Origin: Mycobacterium saskatchewanense
GTDB lineage: Bacteria > Actinomycetota > Actinomycetes > Mycobacteriales > Mycobacteriaceae
Direction: 5' to 3'
Assembly (NCBI RefSeq): GCF_010729105.1
Contig: NZ_AP022573.1
Location: 1,116,001-1,180,000 of the forward strand
Length of the DNA: 64,000 nt
Shown here: positions 10,085 through 30,909 of the stretch, in pieces
Numbering within the stretch: the stretch's first letter is position 1
Layout of the letters: each line of letters opens with the position of its first letter
Position numbers and translations under genes: made by a program
The notes under the pieces: generated by a model
Told to the model about the DNA's origin: nothing
Databases searched by the model: none
The model's input: only the letters and a program-made list of their open reading frames with translations

Positions 10085-15606
<5,522 letters not shown>

Positions 15607-15611
15607 TACGG

Positions 15612-15686
15612 AAGGCGTCCTTGACTCTGCCGAGCGTGGCGGATACCGGTAGGGACCGGAAAACCGTTGCAACGCCTCTCGACCAG
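15612..15686 (-). promoter_or_regulatory. Candidate S-adenosylhomocysteine (SAH) riboswitch upstream of metH
   Basis: Read on the minus strand. P1 is GTCGAG (15683-15678) with CTCGGC (15634-15629). A following AGGCGT (15677-15672) pairs with ACGCCT (15618-15613) as a pseudoknot. A hairpin CCGGT/ACCGG lies in the middle. The conserved-looking core GAGAGGCGTTGCAACGG, followed by CCACGCTCGGC and CAAGGACGCC, matches the layout I know for SAH riboswitches, which switch on SAH-recycling genes such as ahcY and metH. The pseudoknot strand abuts the AAGGA ribosome site, so control could be at translation. No covariance search was run. Confidence 0.72.
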
Positions 15687-15950
15687 AAAAGTCTACGTCG
15701 TCACGCGACGTCTGGACGCCCAGCTCGACTCGACCCGCTCGGCGTTCGCAGCGCCCGTGAGCGCCATCTCGCGGATCTTGTCGACGGTGTCATAGTTACC
15801 AATGTTAACGAGTTAGCAGCCGAACGTATTTCGTCGCAGTCACCCCACAAGGATAGTCGTCCTATGGAATGCGCCCGCTGGTTGACAGGGCCCTGACAGC
15901 TCGCAGCGAGTTCCCGGCGAGCGTATTCGCAGGCAGTCTGCAGAAGGCCG

Positions 15951-15956
15951 TACGCT
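15951..15956 (+). promoter_or_regulatory. Candidate -10 box TACGCT for a leaderless mRNA
   Basis: TACGCT fits the mycobacterial TANNNT -10 pattern and lies 6 bases before the GTG start of the PAC2 gene at 15963. That spacing would place transcription initiation at or next to the start codon. No ribosome-binding site is visible, which agrees with a leaderless transcript. The rest of 15687-15950 holds no gene I can support. Confidence 0.45.
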
Positions 15957-15962
15957 GATTCT

Positions 15963-16853
15963 GTGACCCCGCCCCAGGGCCCCCCTTACGGAGAAGCCGC
16001 GCTGCCCGAACTGCACAACACCATCGTCGTGGCGGCGTTCGAGGGCTGGAACGACGCCGGCGACGCGGCCAGCGATGCGCTCGACCATCTCGAGACCATC
16101 TGGGAGGCCGACCCGATCATCGAGATCGACGACGAGGCGTATTACGACTACCAGGTGAATCGCCCCGTCATCCGGCAGGTCGACGGGGTGACGCGAGAGC
16201 TGGTGTGGCCGGCGATGCGCATCTCCCACTGCCGGCCGCCGGGCTGCGACCGCGACGTCGTGCTGATGCATGGGGTGGAGCCCAACATGCGCTGGCGGAC
16301 CTTCTCCGCCGAATTGGTGGCCATCGCCGACAAGCTCAACGCCGACACCGTCGTCATCCTCGGCGCCCTGCTGGCCGATACCCCGCACACCCGGCCGGTG
16401 CCCGTGTCGGGCGCGGCGTACTCCCCCGAGTCGGCGAAGCGCTTCGGCCTCGAGGAGACCCGCTACGAGGGCCCGACCGGGATCGCCGGGGTATTCCAGG
16501 ACGCCTGCGTGGCCGCCGGGATCCCGGCGGTGACGTTCTGGGCGGCGGTGCCGCACTACGTGTCACAGCCGCCGAACCCGAAGGCGACGGTGGCGCTGCT
16601 GCGGCGGGTCGAGGACGTGCTGGACGTCGAGGTGCCACTGGCCGACCTGCCGGCTCAGGCCGAGGAGTGGGAGCAGGCGATCACCGAGATGGCCGCCGAG
16701 GACGAGGACCTGGCCGAGTACGTGACGTCCCTCGAGCAGCGCGGCGACGCCGAGGTCGACATGAACGAGGCCCTGGGCAAGATCGACGGCGACGCCCTGG
16801 CCGCCGAGTTCGAGCGCTACCTGCGCCGCCGGCGACCCGGGTTCGGGCGCTGA
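15963..16853 (+). CDS. PAC2-family protein (proteasome assembly chaperone-like, Rv2125)
   Basis: A 296-residue cytoplasmic protein opening MTPPQGPPYGEAALPELHNT. The PAC2 fold shows as VVAAFEGWNDAGDAASDALDHL, then VVILGALLADTPHTRPVPVSG, then the C-terminal helical part EEWEQAITEMAAEDEDLAEYV. Nearly identical in length and sequence to what I recall of M. tuberculosis Rv2125. The family is related to eukaryotic and archaeal proteasome assembly chaperones, and dop and mpa are near, but a proteasome role in mycobacteria is inference. GTG start, apparently leaderless. Confidence 0.88.
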   Translation: MTPPQGPPYGEAALPELHNTIVVAAFEGWNDAGDAASDALDHLETIWEADPIIEIDDEAYYDYQVNRPVIRQVDGVTRELVWPAMRISHCRPPGCDRDVVLMHGVEPNMRWRTFSAELVAIADKLNADTVVILGALLADTPHTRPVPVSGAAYSPESAKRFGLEETRYEGPTGIAGVFQDACVAAGIPAVTFWAAVPHYVSQPPNPKATVALLRRVEDVLDVEVPLADLPAQAEEWEQAITEMAAEDEDLAEYVTSLEQRGDAEVDMNEALGKIDGDALAAEFERYLRRRRPGFGR

Positions 16854-30823: not shown

Positions 30824-30909
30824 GTCCGAGTGGCGGAATGGCAGACGCGCTAGCTTGAGGTGCTAGTGCCCTACTAATGGGCGTGGGGGTTCAAGTCCCC
30901 CCTCGGACA
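30824..30909 (+). tRNA. tRNA-Leu (anticodon GAG)
   Basis: An 86-nt tRNA. Acceptor arm GTCCGAG pairs with CTCGGAC (30902-30908). The anticodon stem CTAGC/GCTAG encloses loop TTGAGGT, giving anticodon GAG for CUC/CUU codons. A long variable arm, TGCCCTACTAATGGGCGT, is typical of class II leucine tRNAs. The T arm is GGGGGTTCAAGTCCCCC. No CCA is encoded. A T-run follows immediately. It marks the left border of a non-conserved accessory stretch. Confidence 0.95.

Follow-up and report, generated by a model that had tools for sequence, protein, structure and literature searches.

The riboswitch class that senses S-adenosylhomocysteine (SAH) was reportedly described by Wang and colleagues in 2008 and is represented in Rfam by family RF01057. 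SAH riboswitches function as genetic "ON" switches, and several other small pseudoknot RNAs, including the SAM/SAH (RF01727), SAM-II, and SAM-V riboswitches, are tied to the metabolism of S-adenosylmethionine (SAM). In excerpts of PMC4239095, metH is described as a taxon-specific SAH riboswitch target in the Comamonadaceae. The preliminary description of the locus examined herein stated that known SAH riboswitches reside mostly in proteobacteria, and this is true of the described cases. However, one clause in an excerpt of Sun et al. 2013 (PMC3766115) already reports that such RNAs are also found in Mycobacteriaceae. These represent the same class in the same family and are probably the same element as ours, although that clause gives no gene, structure, or mechanism.

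Mycobacteria have two methionine synthases to choose from, and also place a riboswitch on the gene for the other one. According to excerpts of PMC8088520, metE in mycobacteria is controlled by a cobalamin riboswitch, which differs from the RNA examined herein in its fold, its ligand, its associated enzyme, and its OFF direction. Two cobalamin riboswitches lie at 2352657-2352879 (+) and 5114606-5114784 (-) of the genome examined in this study, one of 60.6 bits before a metE-like gene and one of 84.5 bits before a PPE-like gene (names are taken from translations). If metH were under the control of a SAH-sensing ON switch, the two synthase genes would be subject to opposite RNA controls, one by cofactor and the other by need. 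Neither of two papers on cobalamin in mycobacteria (PMC8088520 and PMC12713380) uses the term "SAH" in its main text, and in the open literature we found no other paper with a title directed toward a mycobacterial metH SAH riboswitch, although RegPrecise, which holds the 2013 regulons, may list metH. As far as the literature searched is concerned, the breadth of the class among Actinomycetes, the range of its targets, the terminator-like platforms upstream of some ahcY genes, the clade-wide exchange of two nucleotides beside the ligand pocket, and the apparent fossil of a second metH gene are new.

The locus is located in a stretch of 64,000 nucleotides (hereafter called the window) from Mycobacterium saskatchewanense, and all features described below are on its minus strand unless otherwise indicated. 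A gene for cobalamin-dependent methionine synthase (metH, 11830-15591, 1253 amino acids) is identified by matches to NF007024 (2155 bits) and TIGR02082 (1735 bits), and the closest named MetH protein is that of M. paraense (96% identity over 238 residues). Upstream of this gene is a leader of about 95 bases (approximately 15684-15589). The -10 promoter element TAGACT at 15690-15695 is a conserved box located at the foot of the first aptamer stem, P1. Specifically, we selected 101 distinct leaders of the genus type that share an exact 18-base core; one of these (L209) belongs to a different genus in the family, and some of the contigs carry labels of other taxa. In 100 of the 101, the sequence TANNNT ends 7 to 9 bases ahead of CGAG, and in 91 leaders the box is TAGACT. 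This constant position supports the existence of a short leader, with transcription predicted to start near 15684-15682. The preliminary description had the element begin at 15690, but this base already belongs to the end of the -10 box, and therefore the RNA probably begins near 15684.

The likely start codon of metH is the GTG at 15589-15591, which is in frame with the open reading frame and is separated by a spacer of 7 from the Shine-Dalgarno sequence GGAAGG (15599-15604). GTG at this spacing is also the scripted start choice in 55 of the 101 leaders. For the window, the script selected an out-of-frame ATG at a spacing of 5 (15593-15591) that runs directly into TGA. The GTG assignment is a prediction, because the ATG codons at 15606 and 15597 share the same reading frame. 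A weak match to the L19-leader family on the opposite strand (15488-15561, 20.8 bits) is below the cut-off for that family and lies within metH, and was rejected.

When the leader is searched with the Rfam collection, the RF01057 model aligns from its first to its last position (1-78 of 78) at 15606-15686 with a score of 27.4 bits (E = 0.0045 for 601 bases against 4227 families), which is below the gathering score of 37 for this family. Nevertheless, this is the best RF01057 match in the entire 6-Mb genome (E = 0.011, compared to 1.44 for the next), and its full length agrees with the SAH-riboswitch-like layout that had been proposed for this leader. The RF01727, SAM-II, and SAM-V families give no match in 15400-16000 at E values up to 10. 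Searching the whole window at Rfam gathering thresholds yields nothing but one tRNA gene, at 30824-30909 (+). A search of 61 genomes identified only one that passes the RF01057 cut-off, and this genome is outside the genus. Because none of the searched genomes of the genus passes, routine annotation would skip the mycobacterial element. Among 20 actinobacterial loci tested, nine exceed the cut-off, reaching 46.0 bits for a metH leader, and these carry the same C30/G46 core as the leader in the window.

The architecture of the leader resembles that of RF01057 in that P1, P2, and a six-base pseudoknot are present in the same order and are accompanied by the UGC(A/G)A, CCA, and GCUCG core sequences. 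Based on the Rfam alignment and on pair counts, the 5' strand of P1 spans 15678-15684, with the core GUCGAG at 15683-15678, and its 3' strand CUCGGC occupies 15629-15634. P2 (15640-15666) is formed by CGG (15666-15664) and CCG (15642-15640), and is capped by a CCGG/CCGG pairing of 15659-15656 with 15649-15646. The pseudoknot joins AGGCGU (15672-15677) to ACGCCU (15613-15618). The P1 and pseudoknot pairings named in the preliminary description, as well as its CCUUCC/GGAAGG pairing, are all present in the sequence. The leader differs from RF01057 in its score, in the nucleotides at positions 30 and 46 (C and G rather than G and C), and in the exchange of three of the six pseudoknot pairs relative to the printed Rfam consensus, where the comparison is our own reading because the Rfam model does not mark the pseudoknot. 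A plain minimum-energy fold of the leader is no better than those of shuffled sequences (z = -0.43), but this method cannot model a pseudoknot. The minimum-energy fold of 15580-15690 does reveal that the first metH codons contain an AACGCC available for pairing with AGGCGUU, and this might constitute a third state, although by eye this pairing is not conserved in the leaders compared.

Given these features, the metH leader very probably represents a true SAH-class riboswitch that turns on translation. Sequence comparisons lend good support to this mechanism, whereas we infer that SAH is the ligand, along with the direction of control and the size of the effect. Without ligand, the anti-Shine-Dalgarno strand CCUUCC (15610-15615) would pair with GGAAGG, and metH would be translated poorly. 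Upon entry of SAH into the pocket that lies between P1, P2, and the pseudoknot, the strand ACGCCU would pair with AGGCGU. Nucleotides 15615-15613 are common to the pseudoknot 3' strand and the anti-Shine-Dalgarno strand, and so the two pairings are mutually exclusive. Because of this overlap, the ribosome site should become accessible once ligand is bound: the pseudoknot would take three bases of CCUUCC, GGAAGG would be released, and MetH would be made. The accumulation of SAH would be a sign that methylation has consumed SAM and that homocysteine needs to be recycled, such that the cell would produce more of the enzyme that converts homocysteine back to methionine.

The pairing that hides the ribosome site is present without exception in the 101 genus-type leaders, none of which was dropped for lacking a strand, and its loop is five bases long in 92 of these. 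In folding calculations, the mean unpaired probability of the Shine-Dalgarno sequence in these leaders is 0.022 when the RNA is free to fold and rises to 0.449 when the pseudoknot strands are blocked, whereas masking a neighboring stretch of equal length gives 0.014. The increase upon blocking the pseudoknot strands is seen in 100 of the 101 leaders. For the leader in the window, the corresponding values are 0.003 when free and 0.312 when the pseudoknot strands are taken. The earlier proposal that a CCTTCC/GGAAGG pairing imposes translational control is therefore supported, but the trapped element is the Shine-Dalgarno sequence rather than the start codon.

Similar arrangements appear outside the genus, where the trapped site is often GGAGG paired with CCUCC instead of GGAAGG paired with CCUUCC. 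In 70 of 71 leaders from outside the genus, the same strand of the pseudoknot also takes part, with three or more pairs, in an alternative hairpin located downstream. Nearly all metH leaders from outside the genus (36 of 37) have a Shine-Dalgarno sequence and start codon as judged by a simple pattern, and the alternative hairpin covers the Shine-Dalgarno sequence. Among 24 ahcY leaders, 15 fit a loose pattern for a run of T residues, six fit the Shine-Dalgarno pattern, and three fit neither. By eye, an unbroken run of at least four T residues directly follows the hairpin in six of the 24 (L001, L212, L225, L231, L247, and L271), and the other nine leaders with the loose pattern have an interrupted T-rich stretch. 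The ribosome-site and terminator-like arrangements both predict that ligand binding turns expression on.

We take G15 and C16 (numbered as in the crystal structure) to reside in the UGC at 15669-15671 of the leader, A29 to correspond to 15637, and C46 to correspond to 15620. On this mapping, the equivalents of the adenine-pocket nucleotides G15, C16, and A29 are retained, and the UGC columns are invariant in an alignment of 38 leaders. In contrast, G30 is replaced by C (15636) and C46 is replaced by G (15620). Our search with patterns of known cores yielded 199 distinct actinobacterial aptamers, of which one (L266) could not be parsed. In all 198 parsed aptamers, A is present at position 29, C at position 30, and G at position 46. 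Both the Rfam consensus and two proteobacterial leaders carry G30 and C46, these being from Burkholderia glumae (L316, 55.2 bits) and Acinetobacter cumulans (L317, 26.1 bits, which is sub-threshold). The leader of ahcY from Paracoccus (L315) gave no SAH match. Excerpts of PMC7057144, a simulation study of the solved SAH riboswitch, describe stacking of C16 and A29 on the ligand, hydrogen bonding by G15, and a contact between C46 and the homocysteine tail.

The strongest competing explanation for these data is that the fold has been retained but the ligand has changed, such that RNAs with C30 and G46 sense SAM, homocysteine, methylthioadenosine, or adenosine. C46 is the nucleotide that reaches the homocysteine tail of SAH in the known structure (PMC7057144, in excerpt), yet every parsed actinobacterial aptamer has G at this position, and the targets include genes for adenosine deaminase. 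We nevertheless consider a different ligand unlikely. The nucleotides that contact the adenine moiety, including A29, are kept, and the reciprocal exchange at positions 30 and 46 resembles a pair that has been turned around with the pocket preserved. Furthermore, the targets center on ahcY and metH, as in the proteobacterial SAH regulon covered in excerpts of PMC4239095, and an ON switch located before metK and ahcY would be an odd choice for a SAM sensor. The reciprocal change from G-C to C-G suggests that nucleotides 30 and 46 form a base pair. However, with a single such event separating the two groups, this is a lead rather than a proof. Discrimination between SAH and SAM may be more or less strict with the swapped pair, which provides a natural test of how the pocket reads its ligand.

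The target genes that bear on this question come from 68 of the 74 order-level matches of at least 43 bits from outside the genus. These RNAs precede metH (34), ahcY (24), metK followed by ahcY (2), adenosine deaminase genes (2), genes for MOSC-domain proteins (3), and methyltransferase genes (3). The metH and ahcY assignments were made by tblastn (at L230, the match displayed covers the C-terminal portion of MetH), and Pfam was run on ten other target proteins, one of which is a repeat of the gene at L039. The two leaders upstream of metK and ahcY (L220 and L222, the latter assigned by its protein start, which is identical over 80 printed residues) depart from the proteobacterial rule in excerpts of PMC4239095, where SAH riboswitches do not control metK. 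In the two cases associated with adenosine deaminase (L221 and L264, PF00962), the enzyme would clear the second product released when SAH is hydrolyzed. The class I methyltransferases downstream of L268, L269, and L275 are similar in sequence, and a product-sensing loop is possible for these genes. SAH-type aptamers also precede genes for MOSC-domain proteins at L248, L249, L276, and L039/L283, and at L249 a cobalamin riboswitch (93.7 bits) is located downstream at 815-996.

A second alternative is that the mycobacterial RNA is a genuine aptamer that has become degenerate or regulates only weakly, and that is kept chiefly for message stability or because it forms part of the promoter and 5' end of the transcript. 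Its low Rfam score fits this idea, as do the outer P1 pairs, which are often missing (the pair at columns 7/82 is unformed in 29 of 38 leaders). However, all 101 core-chosen genus-type leaders retain the pseudoknot strand, the anti-Shine-Dalgarno strand, and the Shine-Dalgarno sequence while the length of the P2 loop varies, and consequently we regard this explanation as very improbable.

In the genomes of the genus examined first, the RNA accompanies every orthologous metH gene. Among these first 37 genomes of the genus, 35 have a MetH match. In 32 of these the N-terminal identity to the protein of the window is at least 81%, and all 32 carry the aptamer. The remaining three have MetH proteins with 45-48% N-terminal identity and no aptamer. 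A covariance model that includes sequences of the genus (R1) has a match at E values of 0.01 or lower in 180 of 198 genomes of the genus with at least 95% completeness, where position relative to metH was established for 32 matches in the genus. In a named collection that overlaps with these in species, 73 of 80 metH loci carry the aptamer. The seven named metH loci without an aptamer are L164, five from Nocardioides, and one from Mumia. At L164 (513-4232 of JAHZKD010000382.1), the aptamer core is decayed, but the 3' part and the Shine-Dalgarno region are still recognizable.

Judging from the alignments, changes on both sides of a pair have preserved the stems and the pseudoknot. In the set of 38 leaders, 91.9% of the P1, P2, and pseudoknot cells hold standard pairs, and neither this percentage nor the covariation score is reached by any of 500 shuffles; sliding the strands against each other never exceeds 46% paired. 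Two-sided changes occur in 5 of 18 pairs (11 of 500 shuffles reach five). The pseudoknot is paired in 100% of its cells, and in 6 of the 38 leaders a U-A pair has become C-G by a double change. Compensatory changes, which the preliminary description had named as a means of checking its proposal, are also present in 75 distinct leaders from outside the genus, where 12 of 21 pairs have two-sided changes, involving 128 cells compared to 48.7 in shuffles. The covariation score for this set is 0.243 compared to 0.118 when shuffled (reached by 0 of 500 shuffles, and by 4 of 500 for pair types), where the shuffle control takes no account of relatedness among the leaders. P2 contributes two-sided changes in two of four pairs in the smaller set and four of six in the larger, and in the larger set the outer P1 pairs 4/66 and 5/65 are unformed in 29 and 41 leaders, respectively. 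In the 38 leaders, 90.6% of the cells of the anti-Shine-Dalgarno helix are paired, with two-sided changes in three of seven pairs (36 of 500 shuffles), a covariation score reached by 1 of 500 shuffles, and pair types reached by 183 of 500. Thus, this helix, when taken alone, appears to have little two-sided change.

A covariance model built from 76 leaders, none of which is from the genus, was used to examine the window genome. From both this model and the set of 71 leaders noted above, L266, L268, and L209 were left out, the last because it belongs to the same family. The leader in the window scores 46.6 bits (E of about 1e-6), and the next-best match in the genome scores 23.6 bits. This constitutes a hold-out for sequence but not for discovery, because most of the 76 leaders were found by R1. 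Covariance searching, another check that had been proposed, thus gives a strong result with the actinobacterial model and a sub-threshold one with that from Rfam. A chance similarity, or conservation of the DNA as promoter or overlapping coding sequence with no RNA function, is rejected as having almost no probability, because despite the sub-threshold Rfam score and the matches at E values up to 10 in 9 of 14 control genomes (none above the cut-off), it is opposed by the genus-free match, the covariation in 75 leaders, and the recurrence of the RNA before SAM-cycle genes in distant families.

The distribution of matches is as follows. Among the 30 RF01057 loci listed from the 61 genomes, each the best match of its genome, 29 are directly before metH and one is before ahcY. 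The latter (L001, 42.6 bits) is the locus from the sole genome above the Rfam cut-off. Of 13 further RF01057 matches that were fetched, six are before metH, one is before a MOSC gene, and six weak examples that are not before metH (L032, L035, L037, L040, L042, and L043) are chance-like and were set aside. In covariance-model searches of broader samples at E values of 0.01 or lower, 105 of 298 genomes in a sample of the order have a match, 34 of which are in the genus. In a sample of the class, 74 of 394 genomes have a match, with 25 in the genus. In a sample of the phylum, only 5 of 296 genomes match at E values of 1e-4 or lower, and all five are in the family of the window. Twelve extra, mostly weak places were also inspected. 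Eight of these (L277-L279, L282, L284, L285, L287, and L288) are false positives of the model in coding-like sequence, with L277-L279 being one repeated match of about 30 bits in one genus that appears prfB-like by eye. The other four are real, and comprise two metH loci of the genus (L280 and L281), a repeat of L039 (L283), and a leader before ahcY (L286).

Although the proteobacterial RNAs and ours resemble each other, the window genome has no SAH-model match near its single ahcY match (5140578-5141984), and the riboswitch precedes metH instead. The presence of the riboswitch also divides the genus. Among the 18 genomes of the genus that lack a riboswitch match, 17 carry another MetH, and the last (7% contamination) lacks a MetH match. 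These other MetH proteins are 45-51% identical to that of the window over the N-terminus and 36-38% over the longest aligned stretch, and all 17 form one group in a tree of 47 N-terminal sequences with midpoint rooting. Their genes are apparently leaderless, as by eye a TANNNT box is located a few bases before the start.

An apparent fossil of such a leaderless metH lies just upstream of the riboswitch, at 15718-15899 of the window, as judged by blastn matches to riboswitch-less loci of the genus. One piece corresponds to a promoter and first codons (15899-15830, E = 4e-8 with L295), and a second corresponds to N-terminal coding sequence (15830-15718, E = 2e-11 with L299 over 15835-15731). The upstream neighbor gene (15963-16853, plus strand), which matches proteasome assembly chaperone models weakly and below the cut-off, is common to both kinds of metH locus, with 80-86% nucleotide identity to the seven riboswitch-less loci with matches listed among the 17 searched. 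If one mismatch is tolerated, 16 of 104 riboswitch loci have a 10-base promoter mark upstream, a count that includes repeated species and has no chance level attached. The position of the fossil points to displacement of the leaderless gene by the riboswitch-bearing metH. The simplest reading would be that two metH genes stood in tandem in the window and that the leaderless copy decayed.

These observations could be part of a larger pattern, in which a separate branch of SAH riboswitches with C30 and G46 extends across the Actinomycetes. This branch would use two ON platforms, with release of the ribosome site before metH and antitermination before some ahcY genes, and would control a wider regulon that includes metK, adenosine deaminase, and methyltransferase genes. 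In mycobacteria, the riboswitch would have arrived along with its metH, which then displaced the leaderless metH in place. We offer this proposal tentatively, and with somewhat less than even confidence, in part because an unbroken run of T residues directly follows the hairpin in only 6 of the 24 ahcY leaders. If correct, methionine synthase would respond to SAH in some species and not in others.

Finally, four contigs labeled as other taxa, namely Bifidobacterium breve (L128), Acidobacteria (L170), Marmoricola (L167), and Propionibacteriales (L159), carry metH genes that are 82-85% like that of the window and are accompanied by the riboswitch. At least the contigs of L128 and L170 look like they have been misbinned.
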